64,000 nt of DNA from Bryum argenteum (lineage: Eukaryota; Streptophyta; Bryopsida; Bryales; Bryaceae): positions 2,919,001 through 2,983,000 of the forward strand of contig CM073321.1 in NCBI GenBank assembly GCA_037043015.1. The letters run 5' to 3'. Numbering within the stretch: the first letter of the stretch is position 1; every line of letters begins with the position of its first letter. The notes under the pieces were generated by a model. The model worked only from the letters and a program-made list of their open reading frames with translations, did no database searches and was not told where the DNA came from. The translations under genes were made by a program, and so were the position numbers. This document shows, one piece after another, positions 7,271-61,455 of the stretch.

Positions 7271-7382
7271 TTGGATGGATGAAAAACTGCGTTCAGTGAA
7301 TGAAATTTTGATATGATGGATGAATGAGACTTATATTTAGGATGAATGAGAATTAATTTCAGAAGTTTTTATTTATTGAAAG

Positions 7383-19130: not shown

Positions 19131-19442
19131 GTGTGGTATTTGTAAAAAGTTCAACTTAGATCTATTAAAAATGAGGAACAAGGGATTTGGTTACAAGCAA
19201 AAAATTCAAAGTAAAATCCAAGGAGAAGTTGATAATAAAAAAAAGCATAAAAAAGTTGAATTTAAAATCAAGCATAAAAACAAACGGGCATATATAATAC
19301 AATTTTTTTACTTCTTGTATTAAAATAAAATATAGCGGAGTTTAAGTCTTTTACTTTTACTTATTAAATGTTTGTCCAACCACATATATATAGGCCCCTT
19401 GGCTAATACTTTTGCAATATACAATTTTTTTGGAATTTTAAA

Positions 19443-27991: not shown

Positions 27992-30900
27992 CTAATATTG
28001 CAATATTCCTTGTTTATAAGAATCATGCAACACAATCCGTTCCCAACGAGTAGGCACTCCATGCACACGAATAGTCACAACTCCACTTTCAAGTACATGG
28101 CCAAGAAGAGACGTCCACGAACATTCGAAAGTGGTTGTAGGACTAGCTTTGTATTCACTTCTATTTCGGTTTGTAGTAGGTTTTGATTTGCTCATCACCA
28201 CCTTTCCGCAATAAGGATCGTCAGCATCAGAAGTTCCCGTCTCTTCATTTCCATCTTCTCGTAAGTGTTGTGGCAATATAACTTCTCTGACGATACAAAT
28301 TTGAACTGCATGTGGTGTTTCCAAGTCACGTCGACAATACATGATGTCGTTGATTTGAGGCCAGGGTGGGCGGTAGCCAATGGCTCCCAATTTAACCATG
28401 TGACTTCGAACCTTCAAATCCGCCATCTCTAATGCAACAACAGTATTTCTTGTCCCTGGAATGGGCTGCTCCATGAATCTGTGAAGAATCAAATGGATTG
28501 GTCTGCAATCATCGCCTGTATAGAACCTTGGCCGAGACTGGAGCAAACACATCGAAGAAAAATCTGAAAGTTGAACTTCTCCATCTTCATCAGGGTTTGG
28601 CATCTGGAATCACAATGAATAAAAACATCAAATTTGAACTCTTAATACAACTACACTGATTTACAATAATTATCTTTTTATACCTAATCTATTCTTATAT
28701 ATAAATTTACATGGAAGGAAAACAAAAACATGAAATTTCAAATGAATGAGTCAAATCCCAAATTACCAGTGAGTAGAATCTCCCATGACAAAATAGCCTA
28801 TGATGTCCCATAAATACATGAATAAAGAGAATCGTGATCTTCATTTTGTAAGTCCAGTGATTCAGCATGTCCAGGGAGTGCAATTCGATTCCATCTTTTC
28901 TCACCAGAACATGGTCTCCTACTTCGTAGCGATTGGATCGAAATATCACAGATGATACTTTTTCAATTTCACTTTCGTCAAAGTATCCCAATGTATTTCT
29001 ATTTAGTAGTCCCTCGTCCGTCCAATATTTGCGTAAATACAATTGGATACTCCTTGCCATTGGAATCATGTTACCTTGTCTCCACACCACAGATATTCCT
29101 TTGGATTGATAAACCTCCCTGCAATGACAAGGTGGTAGTACCTGCCCAAGCTTTTCCAACCTGATAGCCTCCGATTGTGATTTGGCTATAATGATTCCCA
29201 TTCTGTGGAATTCTTCACATTTGTGAACATCATTAGCTGCAAACATGGCCACATATAATCATTCGGTTTTTCACACAATTATTACAATTCCAACAACTAT
29301 GAAAGATTGTACGAATTTGTCAATGATGGAAAATTGGTAGTCTGTTACAAGTTCAAGTTCCAATCACTGCAATTTACTACGGTACCTATTCCAAGTCCAG
29401 GTCGAAAATTTGATGTCATAAGTTGTTCATGGATTGCCACCACAGCTCGTTGTGGTGGATAAAAGTTGTCATTATCTTCAAAGACACTTCCCCTTGCAGT
29501 GCGGTAGGCAAGACGCGCTTCGTATCTGCAATAAGTCACTTCACTTGACTTTTGATTGGTTTTTATACTCTTGTATGAGGATACGCTTCTTTCAAAACGA
29601 TAACACCAATACAAGTCATGGGGGCCATGTCTAACCACATCGTCCAACATTTCGCCATTGCCTGTGAAAAAAATGTGTAATAAATCAATTCTACAACGAC
29701 ATTCTAGCAATGTAATATCCCATTCTTTTGTAAAATAGTAACTACTATTATATGTATAATTTGACTACTAAGTTTTTTTCAAACAAGGTCTCTAAATAGG
29801 CTTTAACCAACAAACATCCACAATTTGGATGCGCGGATATTGAAGGGTTAAATAAGTCATGATTATTTATACTGAACTCATAGACAATTTAAAAAAGAAT
29901 TACATAGGAAATATATGAATATCAACTTCTTTTACTCATTGGTAAGAACATACCTGCAACATGGTGTAGAATAGACGCACTTGGGCCAGCATATTCCTCC
30001 CATTCAATGCGCCATGTTGATAGCAAATCACGGGCTGTCGTGATGGACTGCTCAGTCCATCCATAGGTTCGTGTATGTGAAAAATACAATCTGGCGATCT
30101 CAAAGAGAAGCCTTCCAATCTTATATAACCTGTCAGTTTTATGGACGCCCATTTCCTCGATGCAGTATGGAAGGCACCACAAAATGAATAATTGGAATTC
30201 CTCTGCTTTCCAGTATGAGAGCCTATTCACTATATTAGACGGCCATCTTGCTCCAAGACGTTTTGGCCTGTGCGCTATGATTTCCTTTAACCCATTTTCC
30301 AGCACCTCGGCTCCACCTTTTTGCACTAAGTGTTCCACAAAGACTTTGAATATGTTAAGTGGCAATATGTGCATTGCATCATAAACCAGATCACGGCCTA
30401 AATCAAAACCGTATACATAGTGAAGCCTCCATAGTTTTGAAAATGAGGTTACATTATTCTCACGTCTTGAGCGGATAGAAGAAGCTGATGTTGCAATATC
30501 TGCAGCCTCTAATCGAATCTCTTCAATTGTTCGGCGCTCATGAGGGAATTGAAGCTCACATCGATTGTCTGGGTACACAACGCCACGTGCTTGTACATAC
30601 TTGCCTTTCAAGTGACAACGGCGACATGCATGATAGCGAGATGATTTGAAACCTCCCACCTTGCACTGTGCTGGATGGTCCCCTGTCCAGTACAAGAGCA
30701 CAGCTCTAGGAGTCACACGCTCACGATCAATTGGATTTAACAAACTTTGATCAAATTTTTGAGGTGAATAATTGTAATTTACTTCAAACCCTTGAACAAA
30801 TGCTGATTCCAATTCTCTGTTAAGAGGTTCAAGAAACACAGTAAGAACGCCTTCTTCCAAGTCTTTCACAATTTCACTTGAGGATGCTGGAATAAATACT

Positions 30901-31086
30901 ACAGACATTGGGCGCTTGAGATTCTGCAGTCCCGCGTTTAATAACTCAATCTCCACGGCCCAAGAGTCTTTGTACTTTGTAGTTGCAGACAAAAATCCAT
31001 CCCAGTGGGCACCAATTGCAAAGTTTCTAGGATCCCCCTGAGACCAAATACAATGTGATTAAGGTTATGAGTAATATTTGAAAAAG

Positions 31087-31117
<31 letters not shown>

Positions 31118-33010
31118 CTTCAATTCAAGATGTGAATATCATATCAGATTTTAGTTTAGAAATATTAGTCAAAATTTGAGTTATCTAAGATATGACTTAT
31201 CAATAAAATATGCTGAATGTATTGGAAATAAAACTCAAGTTATCCCAATTATATGAAATATTTCTAGTATGTTGTTAGGATTCCATAACTTGGCAAATGA
31301 TTTCAAATATATTATAATAATATCATACTATTCTTTTTTGTTTTATCAAAATACAAACTATTAGATACAATCCCACGACTCGAACAAGTCAATGTTTATA
31401 AACTGAATTTTCTAACATTCTCCAAATCTTTGACAGTTAAAGATTTTTAAATATTCAAACATAAAATAAAGGGTTTTATTACGGTGTAAATTTTCATTCT
31501 CACCTGAATAAATGAAGGAGCAATTTCAGTGATGGTTCCGCATGAGCACTGAATTCGGTATTTTTGCAAATCATCGTCCCATCCTTCTAATTATTGGGTA
31601 CATTTGGTTGGAAATGCTCGAAATACTGAACGACAAGTAGGATTATTGCAATATAGTGGCGACTCCCAAAGGGCATTGGGATTCCAGAAATCTTGCAGAT
31701 CCCGCATTCTTTGTCCATGCCAGAATTGGGATATAACAGGTGGTTTGTAATCCACACCTCTATGGATCCATTCCTGACGTCTTCTCCAAACTTCAAGAAA
31801 CTCATGGCAAGACGTTCTGCTTTCACACATGTGCGCAATGCGAGGCCCAAAAGGCAAGTAGTCAAATGCCAAAGTAAGTTTGCGAACTTTTTGACACAAT
31901 CGACATTTCTCGCAACAACGAGGACAATCCCGTCGTAATCTCGGCCGGCCTGGTTCGTCACATGTACATTTTACAGCTCGTGGTCCCTCGTATATGTCTT
32001 CATCACTTGGTTCCATTAGGGTAGGTGCATGTGAGTTGCCTTCTTCACCAGTACACATCCTATACCGAACTGGGCTAAGCATGCCATTCAGTTTATAGAA
32101 TGCTTCTAATTCATTCCACGACGAAGGTGCAAAGTATTGCATTGACTCACATTCTGTGAACAAGTAGTCGTGAAATGTTAGTATCTTTAGTTCTAAATTA
32201 GTTTATATTTTTAATAATGTAACAAATATAATTGTATCTTCAATGACTGAATTTGTAATCAATTATTTTTGGAATTATGATGATTTAGAAAATTGATCTG
32301 TTAGGAGAAAAATTCTTAAAGTGTAGAAAATATATCATATATATTTTGAGTGTTCTAAATTTTAATTTACGTTTGATAAAAAGTGAATACATAACAAGTA
32401 TTAAAAAATCCAAGAGTTAGAATGTGAACTTCATTAGCATAAATATACATTATGTAACTATAATGAGAAACATACCTGCCAAAGTAAGGAGTTGAGCAAG
32501 ACCCATATCGTTGTAGTTATTAGGAGGTTCATGTGGATGTACTGGCTTCTTTTTGAAAATCCTCTCCAACATCTTGTCTTGGGCAGAAATAGGCACATTG
32601 GATGAGTCGAGATCTCCTTGAAGCTCAACAACCTCTTTTTCAATGGCTTGGGGTAAATCCATTCCTGTTGGACCATGACGTGGGATTATGCCATTCACAA
32701 ATCCCACGCCAGCCCAAATATCGACCTCATCCTCCGTAGGTTCAGCAATAGGTGATAGAGGTAAGGCAGGTGAATGGATATCCTCAGGATTGCTACGATC
32801 TACACTCTGAGGACTATCTTCTCCACCTAAAACTGGAAACGAGCTACCAGAAGGTGATGAAGGAGACGAAGACGACGAGATAGCTGTTAGACAATTGGAA
32901 GGCTCTCCTACATCTTCAGAAGGGGCATCATCCCTTGACTCAGCTAAGCGTCGATAATAGGTGCTTCTAGAGACTCTTTCTCCAAGAAAAGAATATTCTC
33001 TAGGACCCAT
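27992..33010 (-). CDS. tnp2/CACTA-type transposase gene (six exons)
   Basis: Six exons with canonical GT/AG ends and matching phases: 32,476-33,010; 31,504-32,153; 29,954-31,037; 29,386-29,661; 28,767-29,236; 27,992-28,603 (about 1,208 codons). Exon 1 encodes an acidic, Ser/Pro-rich N-terminus. Exon 2 has Cys-rich zinc-binding segments (CTCDEPG, DCPRCCEKCRLC). Exon 3 holds the core: LLYWTGDHPAQCKVGGFKSS with CRRCH, and LVYDAMHILPLNIFK. These match the Transposase_21/tnp2 family, which cuts and pastes CACTA elements. Exons 4-6 encode a C-terminal region with VGDHVLVRKDG, perhaps a chromatin-binding or BAH-like domain. One in-frame TAA is present near the end of exon 2 (31,591-31,593); otherwise the gene looks whole. 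Element ends were not located. Confidence 0.75.
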
Positions 33011-33649: not shown

Positions 33650-33790
33650 CTCACCCATAAATGAACGGTGACCTTGCGTCCCGACCGGTGGAAGTGGGAG
33701 TGCGCAATGTCTTCGCGGTGCCAGGCGACTTCAACCTCATCTTCCTCGACCACTTGCTCGGAGAGCCCGATCTCAACCTCGTAGGCTGCA
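33650..33790 (-). CDS. Isolated host-type exon
   Basis: Between an acceptor (CTCATTGCAG, about 33,788-33,797) and a donor (GTGAGC, about 33,645-33,650) the frame reads YEVEIGLSEQVVEEDEVEVA followed by WHREDIAHSHFHRSGRKVTV. I do not recognise it. It lies just outside the left end of the MULE, so it may be an exon of a gene whose other part was separated by the 16-kb insertion. Confidence 0.35.
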
Positions 33791-33848
33791 ATGAGAAAAT
33801 AGAACTTCCAAATTTTTGACATTCTTAAACATGAATAATTTTGTACAA

Positions 33849-33857
33849 ACCTGCTAT
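33849..33857. repeat. Left 9-bp target-site duplication of the MULE
   Basis: ACCTGCTAT, identical to 50,023-50,031. Nine base pairs is the classical Mutator duplication length. Confidence 0.85.
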
Positions 33858-34050
33858 GGGACGTTGCTACCGTGTGAGCGTTGAGCGGTGAGCGGTAAGA
33901 TTTAGAATTTTTAGGGCTGAGTTTGTATTTTTAGTAAAAATATTTCTTAAAATAGTTATTTTAAAAAAAAAGAGAATAATTTTTGAATATTCTTGAGAAT
34001 ATTCGAATATTCTAGACTTATCACCGTGGATTTGGTGACCCAAACCCGTG
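33858..34050 (+). repeat. Left terminal inverted repeat of the MULE
   Basis: Starts GGGACGTTGCTACC, then the GAGCGGT-rich block, then an AT-rich part ending near ACCGTGGA. The first ~45 bp match the right end well; the remainder is diverged and its limit is approximate. Confidence 0.7.
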
Positions 34051-34318
34051 CAAATAAAGCTTAAATTCCCTGAATTTTGCGAGACTTCCCCAACAAAACT
34101 CGACAGGAAATCACAAATTTTTAAATGTCAAGAGGTTTCTAAGGTAATTTTTCTAAGTGAATAGTACTCCGAGTTAGACAAATTGGCAAGGATTGCTGTA
34201 CATGTAGGTACTGGTATACTTATTTTTAATAAGTTGTGAAAAATAATCACATACAGTGTAGAGCACCCAATCATAAGACTAACACATAGCGTACGTAGAT
34301 GAGGAGATATAAGGCATT

Positions 34319-37300
34319 CTAATTTGTAGCATGGTCTAGGATTCCTCCCTCCAGAATCTTCTTCACCTCGTTAAAACTAAGAGTGGCCGCGTGGATGAAG
34401 AGGTCTGCATCTGGATCAAATTTGCAAACCAATACCGTGATGTAGTATAGGTGCTTGCAAGGTCGGTATGGATCTCTCCGTCCTAACGAAGAGATTGTTT
34501 TCTTGAACACTGGGCATGAGCAATCCGGGAATTTACTAATTGAAAGTCTATAAACTGCATCTGAATCCGACTCCAAGTCTACGATACATCCAAATCCAGG
34601 CTGGGGGATCATCGTCACCTTCAGAATTTTGGCCCGCATTGAGGTGGCCGACTCAATATTCTTCATGTGCTTCGAAGTCACAGCAGGAATGCGTTTCATA
34701 TTCTTCGATCTTCTTGACCTAGGGAACACGTCCGGCTTCTCCGGGACTGGAATATGGGACAAGTCTCTTGGTGGGGCAACATTATTGAAAGTGCGGTGCG
34801 TAGGAAGCTGTTCTTTTTGTGGTAGTCGAAAGCCCGCATTCTCTAACGCCTCCATTTCATCACGTGTGAGGTTTGTCCCTATCTTAACAGGCCATATTGA
34901 AGGAATAGGGGGTCTATCCTCGCTTTGAGAGAACGGTTCAATCCACTTGCGACGATGACCCTTCACACACCTATCAATATCATCCGCACAAAAAAAGAAC
35001 TGATCAATTATTCTTGGCCCCTCTTGAGGGCGTTGCCATACTCCGGTGTAAGTTGGAGCTGCGGTCGCCTTCCCCTTCTGAATAATTCGTGAGTCACATC
35101 TTTTTTTACTCTTTCGCATGATACCCCAACAAGCCTTGGCAGAATTCTCCCTCAAACGGGCAATGTGCCACAGCCTCTAGTCTACTTTAGTCTCTTGAAC
35201 AGCGGTCACACGTTCCATACTAGGTGCAGCAAAAGTGGATGGTATTGTCGATGGTTCCTCAACTTCATCCTCTTCATGGATAGTACTCAGATTTTCAGCA
35301 CAAGCTCGGGTAACCCTTCTCCCAATTCGAGGACGTGAGTAGCTCACGGTATCAGGTCTGTGTGTTTCATTATCGGCTCAATTGGAACATCACCCTACGT
35401 TTCTTGGAACCGAACACCTCAGCCCCCTCAAAGGTGGGCGTCTCGGTACAAATCTTTTCACTCTGGATAGTCGAAACGCCCCTTGTGAGGCTAGATGGAT
35501 CGCCGGTTCGTCGAGCTTTATGAGCAACACGAAGTAATAGTTCTTCGGATGTTGGTCCATTACCACCCTTGCCACCTCCGTTGAAGTCGTGGTAACCCAC
35601 CACTTGGAGGAAAGCACGAACATAATCATCAACAGCTGCAACGTACAAGTCCCCACCCTTGTTGCCGGACGCTTGCAACCATTTGTTATGGATAGATTCC
35701 GCAAGGTTACATGAAGGCATCTCCGCCAGCTCCTCTGCAGAATATTTATTTTCCTGCCAGTTGCAAAGACAGTTCACTTATTCACAAAATAAGTTCATCA
35801 CGTTATCAAGAGCGATTTAAACTTGCGGCGCCGCAAGTTTGAACTAAAAATAGATGTTTTTCTAATGAAAAATTTAGTAGTTGTTATAATAAAAGTTCAA
35901 AAAAGCAGAATATTCTCCAGTAAAAAAGTAAATATTTGTTATAGATTTACTGGACAGAAATGAACGTGTACATAATTACAACACGCGACTGTGGACTCAC
36001 CAATTCCATGAAGCCACCCCACTGCCTATATCGGAAGTGCCAGAATGCAAGCCAGTGTTCGAGGTGACCTAATCCAACTTCAGAGGTAGCCTGCGCCGAC
36101 GCCCACCACGCTCGGATCGCCCAGTATCTTGTCTCCGCCTCAGCCATGGTGCGTGCATCTTTGTATTGCTTACAAAGATGTCGATGTTGATCCTGCAGCT
36201 CGTGCACGATGTATTGTTTGGTGTGCTTCTCTAGGGATTGCGTCCAATGGAAGTAGCAAGTCCGCTCGCGACCTTCCATGGGCACTTTAGGGTCTCCGGA
36301 GCCATAAATGATGCGCACAACGTTCCGCTTGGCTTGCGACCGCCGGCCATGAATCCTTGAAGCTGCGGCACTTCGACTCGTTCACGCCCACGACGCGTGG
36401 TTAAGGTTCTTCCGAAGACGATTTGAGCATCTCCGTCTTGACCGGGAAATCACGACATGCAATAGTTAGAATGCGGCGATTTTAGAGTCATAAACGTGGC
36501 ACGCCATGGTGGTCGATTCGTGACACGCTTGACGTGGTCGAACATCATCCACGCGCGTGGGGCCAGTCGCCTCCGGGCGCATACGACGAACAAGGTCAAC
36601 ACCGCTTCGGGCCGACCTCGGACATCTTGAAAATGAACACTTTGTCACTTTCATCTCCTGGCCCGGGAACTGGTTACGTTGGATGTAAGCCCGATTCTTT
36701 GAGGCCTCGAAGCTTGGTGATCCCATCAAGAACACCGTATCTGCAAGTGCTTAAAAGTGGTAATACGATTCCCGACGCTCGGAGAGTTCAGCTCTTTACA
36801 CTGCTCAAATATAGGTTCTAGCTCTTGGAGGGTGAGCTTGGAGGTTACAGGGTCACCTTCTTTACGGAGAAGTAAGTTTCCGAGTAAGTCCTTGCTTGCC
36901 TCCATGACTATTTTGGACGTGGTAGCTTGTGGGTTACGTTCTACGTGTTCCTCTATCAACTCATCAATTATTTTACGTGCACATCTCGTAGTCTCCGACT
37001 TTGACAGATGCTCGTGGGTACCGATATGCACACACGCCCGCTCTTGACTCTCCTCTCCGAATACGTAAAATATTTTGGCGGGGCATAAAGCAACACAAAT
37101 GGGAGGTTCTTTGCGGATCTTACAGACCCGGTGAAGAAGAAGGAGGAGGCGTCGCCGACAGAGAAGGGTCCTTCGTAAAGCCCTCAAACTCCACCTCATT
37201 CACTTCTCGCTCTCTGGGTCGGTCGAAGCAAGAAGTCTGCGGTTTTATTGTGGCATTGAAGATGACCTACACATTAGAGTAGCGGAATGACAAACCGAGG

Positions 37301-38182
37301 TTATTCTTGATGTTAGTAGTCATTGTCCCGGTCCACACATGACCGTCGTATCTTTTGTCCATCCCCTCCATAGATTTGGCGACCTTAACAAAGAGGTAGT
37401 TGGAAGAACAGGAGGGAGAATGTAGAGGACATCACCATTGAAAGCGGGAGGCAGGAAAGAGACGTTGTGAGTACGAATGGAGTGGAAATCTATTTTTTTT
37501 AATATAGTTTTGTTGCGAGACATACTACCTAGTCTACGAAGGGAGGAAAGAATGTTTTTGGGTTGTACGACTTTCGACACGGAAAGAGAAGAGGGGGTGG
37601 TATTGAGACCGTGTTTAGAAGCGCATTTGAGAGGGGAGGCAGATTTGATGATAGTCGACGGGACTGAATGGACGATTTTCTTTCATCGTCGGATGAATCA
37701 GAAATATCAATTCGGACTTCGAGACCGGGTTCGACCTTGACACGAGGAAGAACCGGACGAACAGTGGAGATGGTAGAAGAACTACGAGGAGTGAGAAGGA
37801 CGGTGGAGGCGTTCATGACGGACTCCGTCAAGCCGAACAGTCGATACTGTCCGGGCTGTAGCTTATACATTCTACAATTACTCTCTAGGTCGACTGGTTC
37901 GACAAGGACAGAGTACTCGACTAGATTCATGTTTGGATCTAATACTTGGTTCTCTAACCAAAGAGAGGACTCATCAAACCCGAAACGAAGTGCTAGCCAA
38001 GACGGAGTAACTTCTGCCAATCCATTCACCCCCGGAGGAATGCAGATGGGAGGACTTAAGTCTTCAGACCTAATTGCGATGACGTTTGGAGCGGGAGTTA
38101 GTGAAGCGGAGGATGCCATGATAGATGCAGGAGAATAAGAGAGCATCAACAAGTGTGCGGAGAAAGTGAGTCTCGGATGCAT
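34319..38182 (-). pseudogene. Mutator-like transposase with SWIM zinc finger, decayed
   Basis: Pieces in order from the N-terminus: a Ser/Pro-rich region (37,529-38,182); a MULE N-terminal block, CPAKIFYVFGEESQERACVH then GTHEHLSKSE (36,726-37,199); the start of the DDE core, MACHVYDSK, with ILTIACRDF following in another frame (36,380-36,500); YGSGDPKVPMEGRERTCYFH (35,947-36,318); NLAESIHNKWLQASGNKGG (35,370-35,777); and a SWIM finger, CSCPVF with PCKHLYYI (34,319-35,155). Gene order and motifs identify a mudrA-type transposase. Several frameshifts and stops separate the pieces: around 36,320-36,470 the frame changes at least twice, and the second catalytic Asp (expected as GFMAD) reads GFMAGG. 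The protein is therefore dead here. Confidence 0.72.
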
Positions 38183-38531
38183 TTCGAATGTTCAAATAGG
38201 AAGAATTGGTGGAGGGTGGTTACATACGTATTGAATACTTATGAGGTGTACTTTCTTATATTAAAACGTATAGATACGCAATAAAGTTAAGCGTCATCAT
38301 GATGATCTGGACTGACAGTAGTTGATAAATAGTCACATATTAGAATAGTAGATCCTTCATTAAATTAAGTAGGAGTAGAAGGTAAAGTGACGGCGGCCGT
38401 CATTGTCAGAGATATAGGTGGATGATAGATGCGTTCAAACGTTCGCTTAGATTGGATTGTCGGACGGTCATACGCGAATGTTAGGGTATACGCGTTGGCT
38501 GATTAGGGTTTGTTAACCGCATGGGGGAACT

Positions 38532-38538
38532 TATATAT
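38532..38538 (+). promoter_or_regulatory. TATA-like box in the central divergent region
   Basis: TATATAT lies about 110 bp upstream of the short plus-strand ORF at 38,645. Confidence 0.35.
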
Positions 38539-38644
38539 TGGAGTTGAAAAACATAGTTCAGCCTCTTCATTTGCAGTGAGAACACTTGGACTCGTTTAGT
38601 GGATCTCGTTAGAAGTTATTTGTTCGCAAGCAGCATGGACGAAC

Positions 38645-38996
38645 ATGGCGGTAGCGATAGAGGAAAGGAGGGTAGGTCGAGAAAAGAAGAAGCGGAGGGG
38701 TGGAACGAAGTTTACTAATTCTAAAGCACAAAGGCGGAGTGCTTTGCGGAAGCGTGATGGGAGAAGCTCTAGCGGCGATGACCGGGAGCCAGACGGGTAC
38801 GATATCCTAATTGACGATGATGTGTTACCTCCATTCGGGAGGAATATCAAAATGCGATCTCTCGAACCTGGACGGTGTCCCTGAGAGTATCGGGGCCGAA
38901 GGCGACGAAGAAGAGAGGAAGGTAGCGAGGCGATTCAAGACGTCTAGCGAGAGTATATGCGCGGATGGCGATGACGACGGAGGTGTGGGACTCTAA
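38645..38996 (+). CDS. Small basic/acidic ORF in the MULE centre
   Basis: The frame from 38,645 to 38,884 encodes a basic N-terminus (RRVGREKKKRRGGTKF) and an acidic segment (DGYDILIDDDVLPPFG). From about 38,830 an overlapping frame continues to 38,996 with an Asp/Glu-rich tail (ESICADGDDDGGVGL), which may be the true continuation after a small indel. I do not recognise it. It could be an alternative first exon of the large plus-strand gene or a second accessory gene. A GT that could serve as donor follows at 39,004. Confidence 0.3.
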
Positions 38997-39003
38997 GTAT
39001 GAG

Positions 39004-39990
39004 GTAAGGTATAAGTGTTGGTTACGAGATATTTGTATATGTTGATAATATTTACGAATAAGTATATGAAGTAATGTTAGTTTTGCTTTGTGTTCGTGGT
39101 CGCACAGATTGGATGATGTAGTCGATCGACCATTAGATGGGGAGCAATATTTGAAGAGAAAAGAGTGTCGATATTGGCAAGAGAGCGAAGCCTCTTTTGA
39201 TCGGGGACACAAAATGATGGGGTGGATGGATTTGAGACGAGTGCGGAAGAATTAGAGGAAGTACTTGGGAAACCCTACTTCGTGGTTTACTGGGAGGACC
39301 TAGGGTTGGTTAAGTACACAATCAACGAGAATTCATTTTTCAATTTGACGTAGATCTGATATGTATGTATTAGAATTTATATCGTAGGGTTTCATGGTAC
39401 ATTTGTATGGTTGTTTCAGGAATATATTTTGTAGGTATTTTGTAGCGTAATTATTGTTATGACAATGATATAAATTATACGTAACACCCAAATACAAATT
39501 TGGGAGAGAATGCACTGAATGTCAGGGTTTCATGTTAAATTAAAATCGGATATTGCATAATCGCCATGTGAATGTTCAAAAGGAATTCCGTAATTGCATT
39601 GTTCGGAAGGTTCACCTAAGAGAACACCCTCATCTATGATGGAGAGGTAACAAACATTGAAAGTCGTAATTGTGGGGCGCGGTTTGCACAAAGTAGTTTG
39701 AATTTCGCATGTATGCATGTAATCTATAAGTAGTGAAGAATTCATTTGTTTTAATGTATTAATTATGAATAAGGGGAATTCTATGTACGAATTGATGCTC
39801 GCACGACGCATTCGCCATGATAGCGGCGACCTTGCCAGGCGATTCATCGACAATCGATAAGCGTTACGGAACTTGAAAGTCAATATCTTTTTCCTTTTGT
39901 CAAAGTCCGAGTTACAATATGTGAAATATGCTAAAACATATATGTGTCATTGAATAGTAAAGGGTTCCGTTAGCGTTGCTGTTGCATAAG
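39004..39990. other. Central spacer of the MULE
   Basis: AT-rich with short frames only; expected to hold the promoter of the ParB-methyltransferase-like gene. No clear TATA box was chosen. Confidence 0.35.
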
Positions 39991-40529
39991 ATGAGCCGGT
40001 TCCGGGCATTATCATTTGCCGGTCCCGGGCCTGCTTGGATGCCGTTTCCGGCCATCTCGGCCGGGATCGGGCCGTATCCCACCGCCGATCGTTCGGCCAG
40101 GCGGATTTGCAGTAGCCGCTCTGAGCGGAGACGCCGGCACCGCGCCGATGGGAGGATCAGAGAAACTCGTGACCTGCTTGACACAGTCGGAACCCTAATG
40201 AACATCCTTGTACACGGAGATGTGGATTCACAGGAGGATTTTCGAAACGGAGAGGATTTTGAAGTCGGAGAAGATTTTGCACTCGGAGAGCAGGAAGCGA
40301 TGGCAGAAGGAGTTGCGAGTGACATCACCATCCTTGAGCGAGGAACGCAGAGCATTGATGTTGCGCCGAAATCTGTAAGTAGAGGATTGTACATTCTAGT
40401 TTCTCATCGTTGACTCCAGACCTCACAAGTTTGCTCTCGGTGAATCGGAGAAGACACATGCGGGAACGATCTGTCTGGCGAGATTGCAGACCTCCTCCTT
40501 CGGCAAGAGAGGTTAGTTAACACCTACAC

Positions 40530-43500
40530 AGTTGGCGTCCAAAATGTTGTCCGGCTTAACCTCGTTGTTTCGTATTCTCCCTATTTGCGTAGTTTTTATG
40601 CATGAATGTGGGGGGAATCTGGGGTGGTAGTGTTCGTTTCTGGTGCGGGCTTTTCCTCTACCCGCGAAGTCATTGTCTTTGGTTGGGCAATCAACCTCGG
40701 TGATGGCCTCATGCGAGCCAAGGGATCCGGCTTTCATGGAGCCGGATCTCATGTGATCGAGTGCCACAATGGGAAATTCATTTCAAGCTCGTCGCGGTAG
40801 AAGTCACGCGGTGAAGGTTTGACCAGCCGAGGGATCCGGGTTTTGAGAGAGCGGGGGTCATGAATGTGTGCCGGAATTCATAGATTATGGAGATACTTGC
40901 TGCGTCGCAACTATAATTGTTCTTGTTGATGGCTGTAACCAGCCAAGGGATCCGGCTTGGTGAGAGCTGTTGTCATGAATTTGTGAGTGCCGGAGTGGCT
41001 AGCTCAGAGAAACTTGTTGCGTCGCAAGTGGAGTCGGGTTTTTGTCTGTTTCGGTTCTCTCTCTTCCACCTACACAGTTCGCGTCGAAAAAAGGGTCCGG
41101 CTTCTCTTGGTTCTTTCATATTCTCCCTGTTTGCGTAGTTTTCATGCATGCATGTGGGGGGTTATCTGTGGTGCTCGTGTTCATGGCCGGTGGGGGCTTT
41201 TCCTCTACCCGCGTTGCTGTTGTACTGGTTGGGCAATCAGCCTCAGTGATGGCTTGTACGAGCTAAGGGATCCGGGCTTTCATGGAGCTGAGATCGCATG
41301 AATGGGAGTGCCGCAAATGGCAACTTCATTTCAGGAGGGTTGCGGTAGAAGTAACGTGGTGAAGGTTTGACCAGCCAAGGGATTCGGGTTTTGAGAGAGC
41401 GGGGGTCATGAATGTGTGCCGGAATTCATAGATTGTGGAGATACTTGCTGCGTCGCAACTATAATCGTTCTCGTTGATGGCTTGAACCAGCCAAGGGATC
41501 CGGCTTGGTGAGAGCTGTTGTCATGAATTTGTGAGTGCCGGAGTGGCTAGCTCAGAGAAACTTGCTGCGTCGCAAGTGGAGTCGGGTTTTTGTTTCGGTT
41601 CTCTCTCTTCCACCTACACAGTTCGCGTCGAAAAAAGGGTCCGGCTTCTCTTGGTTCTTTCATATTCTCCCTGTTCGCGTAGTTTTCATGCATGCATGTG
41701 GGGGGTTATCTGTGGTGCTCGTGTTCATGGCCGGTGGGGGCTTTTCCTCTACCCGCGTTGCTGTTGTACTGGTTGGGCAATCAGCCTCAGTGATGGCTTG
41801 TACGAGCTAAGGGATCCGGGCTTTCATGGAGCTGAGATCGCATGAATGGGAGTGCCGCAAATGGCAACTTCATTTCAGGAGGGTTGCGGTAGAAGTCACG
41901 TGGTGAAGGTTTGACCAGCCAAGGGATTCGGGTTTTGAGAGAGCGGGGGTCATGAATGTGTGCCGGAATTCATAGATTGTGGAGATACTTGCTGCGTCGC
42001 AACTATAATCGTTCTCGTTGATGGCTTGAACCAGCCAAGGGATCCGGCTTGGTGAGAGCTGTTGTCATGAATTTGTGAGTGCCGGAGTGGCTAGCTCAGA
42101 GAAACTTGCTGCGTCGCAAGTGGAGTCGGGTTTTTGTTTCGGTTCTCTCTCTTCCACCTACACAGTTCGCGTCGAAAAAAGGGTCCGGCTTCTCTTGGTT
42201 CTTTCATATTCTCCCTGTTCGCGTAGTTTTCATGCATGCATGTGGGGGGTTAGCTGTGGTGCTCGTGTTCATGGCCGGTGGGGGCTTTTCCTCTACCCGC
42301 GTTGCTGTTGTGCTGGTTGGGCAATCAGCCTCGGTGATGGCTTGTACGAGCCAAGGGATCCGGGCTTTCATGGAGCTGGGATGTCATGTGATCGAGTGCC
42401 ACAAAGGCAACTTCATTTCAAGCTCGTTGCGGTAGAAGTCATGAGTGTGAGTGCCGGAATTGCTAGATTCAGGAGAAACTTGCTGCGTCGCAAGTATACT
42501 CCGCCTCGGTGATGGCTCGAACCAGTCAAGGGATCCGGGCTTGGTGAGAGCTTGGGTCATGAGTGTGAGTGCCGGATTGGCTAGATTCATGAACAACTTG
42601 CTGCGTCGCAAGTATATTCGGCCTTGGTGATGGCTTGAACCAGCCAAGGGATCCGGCTTGGTGAGAGCTGTTGTCATGAATGTGTGAGTGCCGGAATGGC
42701 TAGATTCAGAGAAACTTGCTGCGTCGCAAGTGGAAATGACCTTTTTGTGTCTGTCTCGGATCTCCCACCTCCACCTACACAGTCTGCGTCGAAAATGGGG
42801 TTCGGCTTCTACTGTATGTTATGTAATCGCCCTGTTTGCGTAGTTCTAATGGATGCATGTGGGGGGAATCTGGGGTGGTCATGTTCATGGCTGGTGTGGG
42901 CTTTTCCTCTTCCCGCGTTGCTTTAGTGATGGTTGGGTAATCAGCCTCGGTGATGGCTTGTACGAGCCAAGGATCCGGGCTTTCATGGAGCTGGGATCTC
43001 ATGAATGCGAGTGCCACAATGGCAACTTCATTTCAAGCTTTTGCGATAGAAGTCATGAGTGTGAGTGCCGGATTTGCTATATTCAGGAGAAACTTGCTGC
43101 GTCGCAAGTATACTCGGCCTCGGTGATGGCTCGAACCAGTCAAGGGATCCGGGCTTGGTGAGAGATGGGGTCATGAGTGTGAGTGCCAAAATTTCAGGAT
43201 GTAAGGGAAACTTGCTGCGTCGCAAGTATACTCGGCCTTGGTGATGGCTTGAACCAGCCAAGGGATCCGGCTTGGTGTCAGCTGTTGTCATGAATGTGTG
43301 AGTGCCGGAATGGCTAGATTCAGGGAAACTTGCTGCGTCGCAAGTGGAATTGACCTTTTTGTGTCTGTCTCGGTTCTCCCACTTCCACCTACACAGTCTG
43401 CGTCGAAAATGAGGTCCGGCTTCTCCTGTATGTTTCGTATTCGCCCTGTTTGCGTAGTTCTCATGGATGCGTGTGGGGGGAATCTGGGGTGGTCGTGTTC

Positions 43501-44400
43501 ATGGCTGGTGTGGGCTTTTCCTCTTCCCGCGTTGCTTTACTGCTGGTTGGGCAATCAGCCTCGGTGATGGCTTGTACGAGCCAAGGGATCTGGGCTTTCA
43601 TGTAGCTGGGATCTCATGAATGCGAGTGCCAAAATGGCAACTTCATTTAAAGCTGGTTGCGGTAGAAGTCATGAGTGTGAGTGCCGGATTTGCTATATTC
43701 AGGAGAAACTTGCTGCGTCGCAAGTATACTTGGCCTCGGTGATGGCTCGAACAAGTCAAGGGATCCGGACTTGGTGAGAGATGGGGTCATGAGTGTGAGT
43801 GCCAAAATTTCAGGATGTAAGGGAAACTTGCTGCGTCGCAAGTATACTCGGCCTTGGTGATGGCTTGAACCAGCCAAGGGATCCGGGCTTGGTGAGAGAT
43901 GGGGTCATGAGTGTGAGTGCCAAAATTCCAGGATGTAAGGGAAACTTGCTGTGTCGCAAGTTTACTCGGCCTCGGTGATGACTCGAACCACTCAAGGGAT
44001 CCGGGCTTGGTGAGAGCTCGGGTCATGCGTGTGAGTGCGGGAATTGATAGATGTAAGGGAAACTTGTCATACGAAATTATAATCGGCCTCGGTGATGGCT
44101 TGAACCACCAAGGGATCCGGGCTTGGTGAGAGATGGGGTCATGAGTGTGAGTGCCGGAATTGATTACTCTATGAGAAACTTGCGGCGTCGAAAGTGGCTT
44201 AGTGTTTGTCGTGGATGTTTCGTTTCTCTCTATTCTCGTCGATTTCAAGTTGGTTGTGGATTACGCCTCGGTGATGGCTCGAACCGACCAAGGGATCCGG
44301 ACTACGTGAGAGCCGGGTCTCATGAAAGTGAGTGCGGAATTGTGAGATTAAAGATAATTAATATGATAGGTCATCTTGCGGCGTCGAAAGATTACTATGC
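40530..44400 (+). repeat. Tandem array inside the first intron of the ParB-methyltransferase-like gene
   Basis: About 18 copies of a ~118-bp unit. Each contains CAAGGGATCCGGGCTTGGTG, then GTGAGTGCCGGAATTG, then ACTTGCTGCGTCGCAAGT. Two or more basic units plus a ~300-bp spacer form higher-order units of about 545 bp; copies starting near 40,801, 41,349 and 41,894 are almost identical. Toward the right the units shorten to the ~118-bp core and become more diverged (last near 44,375). The array stays open in several frames on both strands simply because it is GC-rich and repetitive. ACTTGC and GCAAGT form 6-bp inverted arms around TGCGTC in most units. Confidence 0.9.
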
Positions 44401-47400
44401 TTATCCTGGTTGATGCGGTTTTGTTCATTTGCCCGTCGTATTTGTGAAAGCGGCTATTCCATTGTGATTGCAAGTATTGGCCAAGGATCCCGAGTGCGTG
44501 ATTGGTTGTTTTTGTGGTTTCATGTTGTTTTGAGATAGTAACATTTTCATCTTCAAAGGCAAACTCGACTTTGGTATCATATTGACGCTCATCTACTAAA
44601 TTGTTTATACTGACTTGCTCTTAGCTTGTGCAGATTGTCGAAATGGAGCACAAGATAAACGTGGAGGAGGATTCGGATAATGAGAGTGTAATCTTAGCTT
44701 TGTGCGCTCGTTTACATAATGCAGGAGAGAGTGGGCGCATTGTATTAGAACGTCACATTGTACACTTTGAGAATTTGTTCATGTTTTTCTGTTATATTCA
44801 CTTTCAATCTAGATTTTCTGTCTCATTTTGCTTTTTGACATTAGCAGATGCGAGATCTCGACAATTCTCAATTCAAAGAAGATGCCGCTAGTGATGCTCC
44901 ATCGCCGAGTGCACTTATTCTCCTCTCCCCGAGAATGAGACTCCGGATGCACTTCAAGTGATGGGACTCAAGAAATCGCCATCGGTGACATTGTCCCCGG
45001 GGAACTCGTGCCATCATCACACTGGGCCTCTTTTCGTCCATGACCTTACCTCACCAGCTCGGGGGAAAACGAAGATACGATTGCTGAAGGTGCCGATGGG
45101 GCTCCTCGCCCAATTCGAGAAGACGTTGAGGTCTTCAAAATTCGGATCATCTCAAGGACAAGGACGCTGGATGGATTGGAGAGGAGATGAGACAATTGCA
45201 CAAAGGCGAGCACATTCATGTCATCAACCGCTTCAAAACAAACCGGTAAACAAATCGCGCTTCAACATTCCTTTGTGTCGATTAAAAACTCATCCGAAGG
45301 TCCGCCCGATCATTGACCTTGATGTCGATAAACTCATGAAGGAGTTTAACATGGGTTACCGGGAAGGTGATCGTGTGCTCTATGTTTCCCTCTACTCTAC
45401 GAAGGCGGAGATGTGTCCTGTAAAATCCACTGATGATTTTCTGCAAAATCCTCATTGGAAAGCGGTTAATGACGAATTTGAGGAGATCTTGATGGCTGAT
45501 CCGGACCTACACCAGTTCAGCGACAAGTACTTCTACGTTTATGAAGGAAATCATCGAGTGACGGCATGGAGGAGGCACATTGAGCGGTACCATGCTGATG
45601 AAAGGCCATGGTACATTTCCGTGGATTGCATCGTTCTTGACGGTCGACAAGAAAGAAATGTTCTGCTCAATGCAATGGCCGATATTAATTGGTGAGCGTC
45701 TCAAAGTTTATTGTTTTCTATTTCTTCACTTGCACTACATTCAATCTTTCTCTCACTCAATGGTTTCTACAGGTCTACCGAGAATGCCCATGTCGAAGAT
45801 AACTTCTGCTCCCAACTCCAACGCATGCGGAAATTTGGGAAACTGAAGCTCACGGACTTCAAAGATCTTATCAGCAAAGAGGATTATAAGACTTCCGAAA
45901 GAGTGCAGGAGAAGAAGAAGGAGAAATGGTACCCTCTTGCCATAGACGTGTTCGTGAAGTTCCTATACTCGGTATGATATTTTGAATCTTCCATATCTTT
46001 TTCGAATCGTTATTCAATCGGTTAATATTCTTGCCTACGTTTCTTACATAGATTTCTTGTAGAGGAAAATTGCTAAGGCATCAGACGAGGCAGAAGCAGA
46101 ATACTATGCCGAGACTCCCATTGACAAACGCACTGCATCGAGAGTCTGGACGGCTATTGACACTGCCCGAAAATTGGAAATTAGGAAAATCCGCTCGAAA
46201 GAATTCGACAAGATGTTGGGCGTTGCAAACAAAGAGCTTGGGGGCAAATGGGCCAAAGAGGTATGCTTTTGAAGTTCATTTGAAATGGAAAAGTGTAATC
46301 ACATCTATTCATTCTGACAATTTTTGCGCTCCATCACATTTGCAGATATACTCCCACTACAGCAAAAACTTGATCCCGGAGTTCACTTTGGACCGCTTGT
46401 ACTTGATTGCAACGACGAATTGCCACAAGGATTTTAAGACACAATGGCTTCGCTGGTGGAATTCTTCGTTTGAAGTTCGCGAGGCCAACCATTTCCCTGT
46501 GCCTGTCCAGAATAAACCTCGAGTGTCTCGGCTAAACCGCCTCTCTATGGGCACGGTAATCACGTCATCGTCCTTCGCTTATTGAATCCACCATTGTATT
46601 TCTAAGTTCGATCTAACATTTCTTATCTCATTGCAGCTGGCCAAATACTTGGAAGAAAAGATTGCAGAATTGCAATCAAATTTCGTCATTACTTGGAATG
46701 ACAGCATTCTGAAGCCTCTTGACTACGTCGAGAAATGGAGGCTTATTCTCTGGGATAAAGCCTTCGAAAACTACCTTGGACCCAATGCGAGCCCCAAGTT
46801 CCTTAAAGGCTCCAAATTGGAGAAAATTACGGGTGGCGAAGAGACCGGAAAACGATTGGTCTTCAGGTGTGTTTCAATTTCAATTTCAAGTCCTACTTCT
46901 CATGTATTTTTCCTTTTCATTTGGTTACAAGTGTTCAAGATTTTACTTCTACGTGTAGGTACATCAAGCATGAGCTTGTGTTCAAGGGAGGCCTCGCCGC
47001 CGCTCGCATTCCGGAAGACTTTCAAGACGTTGTAGTCGAGGAAGATCCAGACAAACTCTTTTCTGCTCACCAGCAGAACCGTTGCTCACTTGATGACAGG
47101 AGGTTGGTTTCTGGAATGTCACGACAACTTTGTCCATCGCGACGAGAAGCATCTCGTTCAATACCCTTCCACGGCCGTTGGTACCGAAGCAATGATCGAG
47201 GACGACGACAACGACTTCTCGATCTTGCCTGGTGCGCCTACCCCTCCGCCCGTATCTGCATTTCCATCAGTTGAAGCCCCTGCACAACCTTTGGCGAAGG
47301 GAAAGAAACGCAAGAATGCTCCTGCCAATGTCCCTGATGTACCTGTTGGTGAGCCAATTTTGACTCAACATTCTCATGGAGCTGTTGGAAATCGTCGCAG

Positions 47401-48530
47401 CCTTGCTGCAAATTCGACTCAAATCTCGACAGGTGGTGTTACAAATATTTCATCACCACCGCCTTCCAGCTCTTTTGACCTCAACTCCGGAAAGAAGTTC
47501 GCTTCCCTCCCTTTTCTTGAAGCCAAACATGTTGGAGATTGCTTGTCTTCTGAGATTAGTATTCATCTCCCAATGTACTTGGAAAAAGGGGATATAGGAG
47601 CCTCTGTGCAGAAGGCAGCTCATGATACTAAAGAGTGGGACACGCAAGTCCTGGACATCATCAACCACATCAGAAAGGTAATTCTTATTATTTTTTTTCT
47701 GTACATTACTTTCTTTCTGAAATTTTGAATGAAACACTTTGCTTTTAACATGTCTAACATTCTGTGGTTTTTTCAGATTGGTAAGGACAGGAAGTACCCA
47801 TATAAGGAGATGGGCACGAAACACCCGCATCCCGGCATTGATCTCATCTACGCAGACGTTCCCGAGAACTTACCCGTGCCTGACGTGTCGCCCGTCGAGA
47901 TCCCTTCATGGAACAAGCGAGAGAAGAGCTACTTTGAGAGTGTGTTCTTCTTTGGTTTCTACAACTTGACGGACGAGGGTGCGATACTTGTAATGCACCC
48001 CAAGGACCGTCGGGTCGAGAAAGCTCTGGATACGGAATCAAAGGCGTTTGATTTCCGAATGGTTCGAGATTGGTGGGGATGTAACCCCATGCCAATGGCC
48101 TCAACAAACCCTCACGTGAAAACGGTATGGCCTTCATTCTACATTTAAATCAGTATTATTTCACTTATTTATAATTTTTTTAAAATGGTTCTAATGGATT
48201 GACTTTTGCAGACTCACAACTTTCACATCAAGGTCTTCGTTCGGAAGTCTTTCGCCACCAGATTCACCATCAAGCAGGTTGCGAAAGAATATGCAGGTGT
48301 GCCGATTCTTCCCGACGAGGAGGACCATGTTTTCAACTTCGCGAGCAAAGACTCTATTTGAAAGAAGGAAGACGGTACCCCGTGGCGTGGCTCGCGTGAG
48401 AAGGATCCATCTTTCATCCAATGTTTTGTTGATTCTCTCACTGACGAGCGTGGAATCGTCTTTGACTGGAGCCCTAGTACAGGTTTGTTCTTGCTACTAC
48501 CAACTCTCATTCATATTATTTAATATTGTA

Positions 48531-48600
48531 GTTCTAATGTTCGTTGCTTGTATGTAGGTGCTTCCGTTCTAATGTTCGTTGCTTGTATGTAGGTGCTTCC
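48531..48600 (+). repeat. Perfect 35-bp tandem duplication of a splice acceptor
   Basis: Positions 48,531-48,565 are repeated exactly at 48,566-48,600. Each copy ends in TATGTAGGTGCTTCC and so contains an intron 3' end. Only the second acceptor (exon from 48,593) keeps the reading frame; the first leads to a stop after 11 codons. Confidence 0.9.
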
Positions 48601-49116
48601 GTAATTGCGTGCGCGCGATCAAACCGTCATCTAATTGCAGTTGAAGCTGACGAAGAGATATTTGACGGTCTTTTATCGGCATACGTGGATGGTACCGCTT
48701 TTGAGGAAGAAAGCGGCGATTCAATTCCGGATTATGACTACGACAGTGATAGTTCTGAACCGCTTCCGAAGAAGCAACGCCCAACATTCTGTACGTAATA
48801 ATCTTACTTTCTTTCCTTCTATTGTTAGTTTCAGTTGCTAATTATTTATTGGTACTGACTTTTTTTGTACTTTAGAATCGCAGGTTCAAATCGACGCTTG
48901 ATTAGCGACGGAAGTCTCTACAGCAGTCCTCCGCAAAGTTTCACTCTACCATCTTATGCGGAGATGATAGCTCAGGATTTCGTCGCTGCCCCTTCTCCCG
49001 TGATATCGGACAGTAGTAGACGTCGACGCTTTAGCTCGAGAGTGCTAGCGTTTATAGACGATGAGGCTGATCAGTGTGACCAACACTTTAATGGTCGTTC
49101 ACCATCAGCTTCCTAG

Positions 49117-49900
49117 GTGATTTTATTTTCCTAGTTTTGGTTTGGACCATGTAGGGTCATATATCTATAGTTGGCCTACGGCATTGGTCATACGTGTGGT
49201 TTTGCTTTACTATTTTATATATATATGACGTTTACCTATTACTTATCAACGTTTTACAATTTCTTAATTCATGTAAATGTTACACTTTTAAACTCAATGC
49301 GAACTAAAAGTTTCTAAACGTTTTTTATTTCCATTTGGATTTTATGAATCTTGCCAATGATGGTAGGGGTTCTAATCCAGTATTTGTATAGCTCGGGATA
49401 GTCGCTTTAGAATGCGGTGCAATGCTTCTAACGAGGCCGAGGAGAATCGAACTCGGGACACTACAATGCCACGTGAAATCATGAATGTCTTTCTGCTCAC
49501 CTTTCGAGGAGAGACACGGGAAGACGACCTGTAGTTATAAATTTCTGATTATATAAACTGAAGCATTTACATATAATTCTAACATGTGTAATAGGAAAAT
49601 GATGACGTCAGCCCTAATTAGTTTCTAAACCTTAAAATCAATAAATTAAACTTATTGATTACCGAAAGGGCCATCCTAACTTTTGGTTTATATTTTGTAT
49701 TTGATTTGAATTGAATTGGTTACACATGATGATGCGAGCCCATAATATAAATATATAATTGACTTTTATTTAAATTTGCAAATGTGGTTTAATTATGTTA
49801 TATTGTAGGACCCCATTACATTTTATATCGAAATGGATAGAGGACCCTATGTCCACGGTTTTGGGTACTTTTATGCCTAAAAATAACCATTTCCAAATTT
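49117..49900. other. 3' flank of the cargo gene
   Basis: AT-rich, no gene seen. It leads into the right terminal repeat. Confidence 0.4.
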
Positions 49901-50022
49901 TAAAACCACCCATTCCATGGTAATAGGGCCATTAACTTTTAAAATTTTTATTTCTTACCGCTCCAACTTTACAGCTCACCGCTCACCGCTCACCGCTCAA
50001 CGCTCACACCGGTGGTTTCCCC
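49850..50022 (-). repeat. Right terminal inverted repeat of the MULE
   Basis: Minus strand reads GGGGAAACCACCGG and then the block shared with the left end. It carries extra tandem copies of GAGCGGT compared with the left, and an ACCGTGGA word at its inner end. Confidence 0.7.
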
Positions 50023-50031
50023 ACCTGCTAT
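50023..50031. repeat. Right 9-bp target-site duplication of the MULE
   Basis: ACCTGCTAT, identical to 33,849-33,857. Confidence 0.85.
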
Positions 50032-50212
50032 GCATCCACGGTAAGCTAAAAATGGATGAGTGTGGCAAGGCCACGGATGACTCTCTCTTTTTTATTCATA
50101 CAAAACCCTAATTCACCCTCGCCATGCCCTTGTCATTCCGCAATTCCGCAAGCTCACTGAATTCCTCGCACGATTAATTGGAGAGTGCCGTGATGTATTA
50201 GGCTTCGTCGTT

Positions 50213-53454: not shown

Positions 53455-53558
53455 TAAGAAAGGAATTTCACTTAAACAATGATTCGCATGATGCATGTTC
53501 GCTGTAATGTCTGAATTGGTCGCTTTCCTTTGCTGCAGCAACTGATATCTCATTACCA

Positions 53559-53885
53559 GTGGAAGACGGTGCTGGTGAATTAGGGGAGGCTCAATCTGCA
53601 CAAGTCGACCCTACTGCGGATTTGCCGAAGGAGTCGGACATGGACATAGATGGTAAAGTGAAGACTGTTGATCTGTCGAAGGAGTCAGACATGGACATAG
53701 ATGGTACCGTGAAGACTGTTGATCTGTCGAGGGAGTCGGACAAGGAGCAACCATCTCGAGGTTACGCCACTCCCCCTCAGGTTAGGTTCACGAGAGAAAA
53801 ATACGAGGGGGTCAAGCTCGAGACAGCGGCCGAGCTTTTGAACAATAGTGTGAAGCCCGTCCTCATTGCTGGCCCCAAGCTTTGA
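53559..53885 (+). pseudogene. Chimeric exon: repetitive linker joined to the start of a PDC fragment
   Basis: The frame holds a 51-bp tandem repeat (53,619-53,741, 2.4 copies) giving DLSKESDMDIDGTVKTV units, then PQVRFTREKYEGVKLETAAE and LLNNSVKPVLIAGPKL. The latter is the central-domain start of pyruvate decarboxylase. The linker is not PDC sequence. It could be an exon from the preceding gene, an old fusion point, or read-through of an intron. Confidence 0.5.
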
Positions 53886-55167
53886 TTCTCCCAGGCAAAC
53901 GAAGCATTTGAGGCGTTGGCGATAGCATGATACGCAACGGCGATCATGCCGTCTGCTAAGGGGCAGTTTCCAGAAAATCACCCCAATTTCATAAGCACTT
54001 ATTGGGGCTCTGTAAGCTCGGCGTACACAGCCGAGATTGTTGAATCTTCAGACAAGTATCTGTTCGCAGGGCCAGTCTTCAACGACTACAGGTCAGTGGT
54101 CACAGCCCCTGCGCATTGCAAATCCAGGTAGTGGTCATACTAAATCATAGGAATGTCTGCAGCTCGGTAGGGTACTCGCTGCTGATTAAGAAGGACAACC
54201 TAATTAGCTTGGAGCCTGATCGAGTGAAGATTAGGAACGGGTCGTCGTTCGGGTGTGTGCTGATGAAGGACTTTCTCGAAGCGCTTGGGAAGTAGATAAA
54301 GAAAAACACCACGTCGTTCGATAACTTCTCGCGCATGTACGTACCACAAAGCGTTCCATTGAAGCAGAAGCAGAACGAGCCGCTCAAAAATGTCAACCTC
54401 TTCAAGCACATTCAGGTGAGAATCTAGGGACTTGTTATCTCGTTCTTCTCTGAAGAGCTGCTCTCTGAAGCTATCGAGCCGCTGGTGTAGGGAATGTTGA
54501 CAAAGGACTAGGCTGTGATCGCCGAGACGGGCGACTCCTGGTTCAATTGCCAGAAGCTTAAGCTGCCTGAGGGCTGCACTTACGAATTCCAGATGCAATA
54601 TGGCTCCATTGGCTGGGGTGTGGGCGCCACTCTAGGCTACGCGCAGGGCAACAAGGCGAAGCGAAGGTTCGCATGCATCGGTGACGGAAGCTTCCAAGTA
54701 CGAAACCTCTCTCTAGTAATGTGAATGTTTGATATGAGCATCCCTAAACGATAGAAGCAGAGTTTTTAATATGAGTACCTCACTACAACGTGTGGAGCGA
54801 TTTGGTGCAGGTGACAGCACAAGATGTGTCGACCATGATCCGCTACGGCCAGAAGAGTATCATCTTCTTGCTCAACAATGGCGGCTACACCATCCAAGTC
54901 GAGATCCACGACGATCCTTACAACATCGTTAAGAACTGGAACTACACTGCACTAGTGGAGGCTTTCGCCAACGGTGAAAGCAACGTTTGGACATGCAAGG
55001 TGAGAACGGAGGAGGAGCTCGAGGAAGCCATTGCTGCAACACACACCAAGGCTGACAGCCTCTGTTTCATCGAAGTTTCACTTCACAAGGATGACACTAG
55101 CAAGGAGCTACTTGAGTGGGGATCTCGTGTGGCGACTGCCAACAGTCGACCACCGAATCCTCAGTAG
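53810..55167 (+). pseudogene. PDC: Pyruvate decarboxylase, C-terminal two-thirds, broken
   Basis: PDC converts pyruvate to acetaldehyde in the cytosol during fermentation. The segment covers the central domain and the thiamine-diphosphate domain. Landmarks are [69 protein letters not shown] and NNGGYT (the GDG...NN cofactor motif), ending with [19 protein letters not shown] at 55,167. The substrate-binding N-terminal domain is missing. Stops interrupt at about 53,883, 53,928, 54,293, 54,488 and 54,510. Intron positions are partly retained (for example between GDGSFQ near 54,697 and TAQDVS near 54,813), so it is a duplicated genomic fragment, not a retrocopy. Confidence 0.85.
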
Positions 55168-61420: not shown

Positions 61421-61455
61421 AGGTATTATAATTTTGTCTTTTCCCTTGCCTAAGG

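Follow-up and report, generated by a model that had tools for sequence, protein, structure and literature searches.

The 64,000-nucleotide stretch of Bryum argenteum contig CM073321.1 analysed here, which we call the window, carries at 33849-50031 a set of features for which one 16.2-kb DNA-transposon insertion is the simplest account. Two divergent genes lie inside it, both spliced by prediction and both broken: a transposase-like gene on the minus strand and, on the plus strand, a 12-exon gene whose product resembles a ParB-methyltransferase fusion. The proposed first intron of the second gene holds 16 near-palindromic copies of one short sequence, which a preliminary description of this DNA did not mention. 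By analogy with better known elements, we suggest a decayed transposon, once larger-acting and probably Mutator-like (MULE-type), with an element-encoded factor for self-recognition and its own array of docking sites. We give this explanation slightly less than an even chance.

The preliminary description placed 9-bp direct repeats, ACCTGCTAT, at 33,849 and 50,023, and these are borne out as target-site duplications at 33849-33857 (left) and 50023-50031 (right). In an exact search of the 64-kb window they are the only two copies on the plus strand, with none on the minus strand, and they lengthen to 10 bp, ACCTGCTATG, at 33849-33858 and 50023-50032 when the following G is included. When 19,880 random pairs of 30- and 32-bp stretches were drawn from the window, a common repeat of at least 9 bp occurred in 0.25% of them and one of at least 10 bp in 0.075%. 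Inside the duplications lie the left (33858-33909, plus strand) and right (49965-50022, minus strand) terminal inverted repeat regions. The inverted terminal blocks claimed earlier hold up here: 33872-33899, GTGTGAGCGTTGAGCGGTGAGCGGTAAG, and 49982-50009 are identical at 27 of 28 bp. This shared block starts 14 and 13 bp inward of the direct repeats. Exact copies of its 20-bp core, TGTGAGCGTTGAGCGGTGAG, are confined to the two element ends within the window, and allowing up to three mismatches gives four matches, all at the element ends, against an expected 0.01. About five heptamers GCTCACC (the GGTGAGC type on the other strand) stand at the right end, and by reading the left end resembles this heptamer-rich right end. 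We rejected a chance match of the ends, against which the random-pair frequencies and the uniqueness of TGTGAGCGTTGAGCGGTGAG argue. We also rejected the view that a fixed host gene is flanked by repeats through accident, since repeats, ends and two-gene layout coincide, as judged from the window alone. A blastn comparison (E 1e-3) revealed no further copy of the element elsewhere in the window.

The palindrome array occupies 40895-44195 on the plus strand, with the consensus ACTTGCTGCGTCGCAAGT. Neighbouring sites stand in groups 117-118 bp apart, and a further degenerate site lies at 44374. With up to two mismatches ACTTGCTGCGTCGCAAGT is found at 17 places in the window, and all 17 are in the element: the 16 of the array and one at 35821, in the proposed transposase intron. 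The same search of 100 shuffled sequences found none. A looser palindrome pattern, with up to three mismatches, gave no match in the window outside the element. The outlying site falls in a perfect 22-bp palindrome, AAACTTGCGGCGCCGCAAGTTT, at 35819-35840, which is the longest perfect palindrome in the window and agrees with the array core at 16 of its 18 bases. Scans of the window for Rfam families and tRNAs gave no match.

The divergent 12-exon gene reported earlier was recovered by an independent model built on reading frames and splice signals, with the correction that the gene is broken. Its predicted exons run from 39991 to 49116 on the plus strand. Proposed exon 1 (39991-40374; donor GTAAGT, phase 0) is followed by the proposed 4,259-bp intron 1 (40375-44633; GTAAGT...GTGCAG) in which the array lies. 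Introns 2-11 are 81-110 bp long and, with intron 2 starting at 44760, all 11 introns are predicted to be GT...AG. Exons 2-3 (44634-44759 and 44848-45691) contain a ParB/Srx-like motif. They are followed by exons 4-8 (45773-45971, 46063-46260, 46346-46555, 46637-46866 and 46959-47677), by exons 9-11 with the methylase-like domain (47777-48124, 48212-48482 and 48593-48790), and by exon 12 with the stop codon (48884-49116). The breaks are an in-frame TGA at 48359-48361 and frame changes within 44848-45273 and near 47078-47100. A perfect 35-bp tandem duplication at 48531-48602 spans the 3' end of intron 10 and the start of exon 11 and doubles the splice acceptor. Together the exons amount to about 1,320 codons, compared to 1,104 amino acids in a protein of an Ectocarpus transposon (PMC12477816).

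Judging by its sequence, the C-terminal part of the predicted protein is clearly related to the N6/N4 DNA methylases (PF01555 type), so the homology claimed for it earlier stands. It matches phrog_18293 (E=0.00099), phrog_3008 (E=0.0015) and phrog_8769 (E=0.022) in PHROG, and PF01555 in Pfam at E=0.026, short of the cut-off. With E values up to 1 allowed, tblastn gave matches in 25 phage records, none reaching 60% identity; the best E among the ten matches listed is 0.003. A profile of four of the phage matches scores the domain at 29.5 bits, against 7.8 or less for 999 shuffles; the four were picked because they were already matches, so that the score overstates their independence. Viral contigs searched with a methylase exon gave four pattern matches and no confirmed relative. 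In the alignment with the four phage relatives the order of motif IV followed by motif I is kept, and A, C, N, R, I and E residues after motif I are invariant.

Catalysis is a different matter. In methylases of this kind motif IV is canonically (D/N/S)PP(Y/F/W), and motif I has conserved glycines. Here motif IV is DVPE (in ADVPEN), where the four phage relatives have DPPY or DLPY, and the motif I-like DWSPSTGASVIAC ends in PSTG, where they have MGSG. This copy thus lacks both canonical catalytic motifs, and the methyltransferase of the preliminary description is retained as a homologue with non-canonical motifs. With motifs I and IV departing from the canonical form, the protein could bind DNA and not methylate it; in the lineage of this copy a binding-only role may be about as likely as a catalytic one.

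The region preceding the methylase domain is a possible to probable ParB/Srx-like domain, although this assignment is much weaker than that of the methylase. The motif noticed earlier, EGNHRVTAW, is present in exons 2-3, and this part matches phrog_1033, 'ParB-like partition protein', at E=0.0019 (PHROG). ParB is favoured mainly because its pairing with a methylase, on the strand opposite to the transposase, has been published in a transposon (PMC12477816).

The other gene consists of minus-strand open reading frames (ORFs) from 38191 down to 34319. Its 5' part (36231-38191) has a putative catalytic region spread over three frames. Further coding pieces at about 36001-36381 and at 35370-35753 (35370-36381 in all) lie around an intron proposed from sequence at 35754-36000 (donor GTGAGT, acceptor GGCAG). 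The 3' part (34319-35176) has near the end of the gene a SWIM-like finger, CPDCSCPVF..CKHLYYI, in which the CxC..CxH pattern was recognized by eye; the Pfam SWIM matches to the transposase pieces have E values of 0.89 and 0.34, both short of the curated cut-off. The stretch GSGDPKVPMEGRERTCYFHWTQSLEKHTKQ presumably resembles plant MULE transposases. Terminal inverted repeats, which are absent from some MULE families, are present here, short and 13-14 bp inside the duplication. We call the element MULE-type with moderate confidence, because of the length of its duplication and the SWIM-like finger: MULEs have target-site duplications of 8-11 bp, a range in which the 9-10 bp of ACCTGCTAT(G) falls, and many of their groups have SWIM (PMC6446971). 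Other Pfam matches to a transposase piece, Furin-like_2 (E=0.01) and CEP76_N (E=0.087), are marginal and were taken as chance, as were Putative_PNPOx_2 (E=0.26) and pre-PUA_NIP7 (E=0.24). Viral contigs searched with a transposase piece gave one pattern match and no confirmed relative.

How might these parts work together? ParB proteins bind palindromic parS sites. The ParB-methylase-like protein would dock at the palindromes in the element that encodes it. Docking would then lead either to methylation that marks the element or to mere occupation of the sites that hinders host silencing, and an element so marked or shielded would stay expressed and mobile. We propose docking because of the analogy with VANC21 on VANDAL21 (PMC5735166). 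A short motif occurs in many tandem copies in the introns and other noncoding DNA of VANDAL21; VANC21 binds this motif in its own elements, where it is associated with a loss of DNA methylation (PMC5735166). We did not adopt the name parS for the sites described here, which are candidates identified from sequence only; the parS sequences known to us differ from them. A more far-reaching version can also be suggested, in which a ParB-methylase of prokaryote type was taken up by a plant MULE along with a palindrome array, centromere-like (parS-like) and lying in the first intron of the ParB-methylase gene. The array would load the protein onto the element for self-recognition and for evading or rewriting silencing, and the methylase half may have turned into a non-catalytic binding module. 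We regard this version as rather unlikely.

Several observations weigh against the docking explanation, and they are set out here together with the alternatives that some of them favour. The first alternative concerns the array, which could be an ordinary tandem repeat of the intron, unrelated to the encoded protein, so that only the accessory gene would be meaningful. The array units arose by duplication, with a tandem period of 118 bp (Tandem Repeats Finder, TRF) and with identities over 300 bp of at best 100% and 95% at offsets of 544 and 614 bp; hence 16 copies are not 16 independent events. At least six related units have no core by our reading: AACTTCATTT at 41322, 41866, 42409, 43024 and 43639, and one at about 44061. 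A perfect palindrome of at least 22 bp arose in five of 100 shuffles, so that being palindromic counts for little by itself and more weight falls on the match of AAACTTGCGGCGCCGCAAGTTT to the array core. When the array units (16, of which 14 are distinct) are aligned, no 18-column window is better conserved than the core, at 0.976 versus 0.769 for the other columns, a contrast that is overstated because the units were selected for their likeness to it. What an ordinary repeat does not readily accommodate is that the core stays nearly constant across units whose flanks are of several types, and that a perfect 22-bp relative lies 5 kb off, outside the array. We therefore consider this alternative doubtful, though it is the one that we take most seriously.

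The second alternative concerns the class of the element. In Pfam the MULE model matches none of the broken transposase pieces searched, and the matching parts of the ends, at 28 bp, are short and begin 13-14 bp inside the duplication. The transposase might belong to another superfamily that makes 9-10 bp duplications, with a SWIM-like finger by coincidence. Since the 9-bp duplication and the finger both suit the features described for MULEs (PMC6446971), we find this quite improbable. The SWIM-type MULE transposase remnant of the preliminary description is retained here as a gene that is transposase-like, broken and endowed with a SWIM-like finger.

In Pfam the ParB half has no match to a ParB model, and its best match is to PF07067, DUF1340, in the region of exons 4-6 (E=0.0058, under the cut-off). 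A tblastn search of phages with this part found no match at E up to 1. Profiles built from two and from three ParB proteins, all from one phage, placed the window sequence 51st and 23rd, respectively, in a ranking of itself and 999 shuffles, so the phage profiles do no better for it than for shuffled sequence. The ParB exon alone, modelled by AlphaFold without an alignment, has a mean predicted local distance difference test (pLDDT) score of 36.1, too low for the model to be informative. With the same exon as query, viral contigs gave four pattern matches and no confirmed relative, and prokaryote genome contigs gave 56 pattern matches, none of them confirmed; prokaryote genome contigs gave no match to the terminal repeat pattern. 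Neither half of the gene has a match in NCBIfam. When parts of both halves were compared with solved structures, one search found nothing and the other gave three matches with E values of 0.74 or worse.

Finally, the docking explanation rests on one copy of the element, the only one known here. Such a situation would also be expected if the ParB-methylase-like gene were a passenger that a MULE had taken up a single time from a host or a virus, in the manner of Pack-MULEs, and that had no role in the element; capture of this kind has been described in plants (PMC6446971, PMC12477816). A passenger would not need the complete layout of 12 exons with GT-AG introns that we predict, nor the divergent orientation to the transposase that is also seen in Sola1 of Ectocarpus (PMC12477816), nor a palindrome type common to its own intron and the transposase intron. 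We think this origin unlikely. Returning to the docking explanation, the preliminary description had reached a related view, a MULE lineage whose second gene is a bacterial or phage-type ParB-methyltransferase, perhaps used to mark, protect or regulate the element. The single insertion, the MULE-sized duplication and the divergent transposase-like and ParB-methyltransferase-like genes of that view are upheld; a lineage, represented here by one copy, a catalytic methylase, a true ParB domain and a MULE transposase by profile are so far putative.

We know of other elements and proteins with which this one can be compared. The second gene of maize MuDR is named mudrB. Like MuDR, the present element is, probably, MULE-type with a transposase gene and a second gene (PMC6446971); the second gene here is ParB-methylase-like. 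The closest in content is Sola1-1_Ec32 of Ectocarpus, a giant DNA transposon of 21.5 kb whose 1104-aa protein has ParB-like and N4C/N6A methyltransferase domains and is encoded opposite to the transposase strand (PMC12477816). Both are thus giant transposons with a ParB-methyltransferase-like gene opposite the transposase. By description, Sola1-1_Ec32 has a Sola1 transposase and comes from a brown alga, in contrast to the SWIM-like finger, 9-bp duplication and plant-like genome found here. Broken genes, non-canonical methylase motifs and the palindrome array also set the present element apart, no array being mentioned in the available part of PMC12477816. With VANDAL21/VANC of Arabidopsis it shares an accessory protein of a MULE, here a probable one, and a short motif multiplied in tandem in introns and elsewhere in noncoding DNA of the element, the role as a target being putative here (PMC5735166). 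The VANC motif is nine bases in one orientation, whereas ours is an 18-22 bp near-palindrome, and VANC is not described in the available text as ParB or methylase, which separates it by description from the present protein (PMC5735166). Bacterial Bce_0392 joins a ParB domain to an adenine methylase, a layout that is putative here, and a nicking activity is reported for it (PMC5512222). The protein described here differs in being eukaryotic, multi-exon, longer and only weakly similar.

The rest of the window can be described more briefly. Between the two genes lie small broken ORFs of unassigned nature (38600-39353, plus strand); the one piece searched, 39070-39255, has no Pfam match. Directly left of the element is a pyruvate decarboxylase-like N-terminal piece (33661-33816; in PDB, indolepyruvate decarboxylase at E=2.8e-07 and pyruvate decarboxylase at 8.9e-06). 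A middle piece at 53508-53885, recognized by eye and with no Pfam match, and a C-terminal piece at 54775-55164 (pyruvate decarboxylase, E=6.3e-31) lie far to the right. The element and another gene, which has no Pfam match and which we take to be CTU2 from its looks, stand between these pieces; something besides the insertion of the element may thus have contributed to splitting a host gene. We call the genome plant-like because the nearby genes are so read, although the pyruvate decarboxylase relatives are not plant-specific. Long, imperfect inverted repeats at 18385-18581 and 22365-22561 (73-85% complementary) flank a kinase-like ORF (19407-20912; Pfam Pkinase E=1.6e-06, just under the cut-off), and it is possible that they form a second element carrying a kinase gene. 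An 803-aa open frame at 59081-61492 on the minus strand has reverse transcriptase, RNase H and integrase zinc-binding domains and is presumably Ty3-type. A tnp2-like (CACTA-type) transposase remnant lies at 29922-31058 on the minus strand (PF02992, E=3.7e-05, under the cut-off); the ORF beside it, 31591-32202 on the same strand, has no match. A 992-aa open frame at 4352-7330, also on the minus strand, has a sub-cut-off Pfam match only (TMF_TATA_bd, E=0.0017) and may encode a gag-like protein of a retrotransposon.

Algal transposons with ParB-methyltransferase genes have been published before, and the present element is a variation on them. The authors who described them suggest that the proteins bind and mark their own element (PMC12477816). 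Among the literature matches listed, this is the only report of such genes in eukaryotic transposons that we recognized, and in none of those matches did we see a ParB-methylase gene together with a MULE or a palindrome array. If the docking explanation is correct, the array within the gene's own element would be a concrete and testable target sequence, of which none is named in the available part of PMC12477816. It would also tie a prokaryotic-type protein to the anti-silencing factors of plant MULEs that read tandem motifs borne by the element, and the same strategy would have arisen from an unrelated protein.

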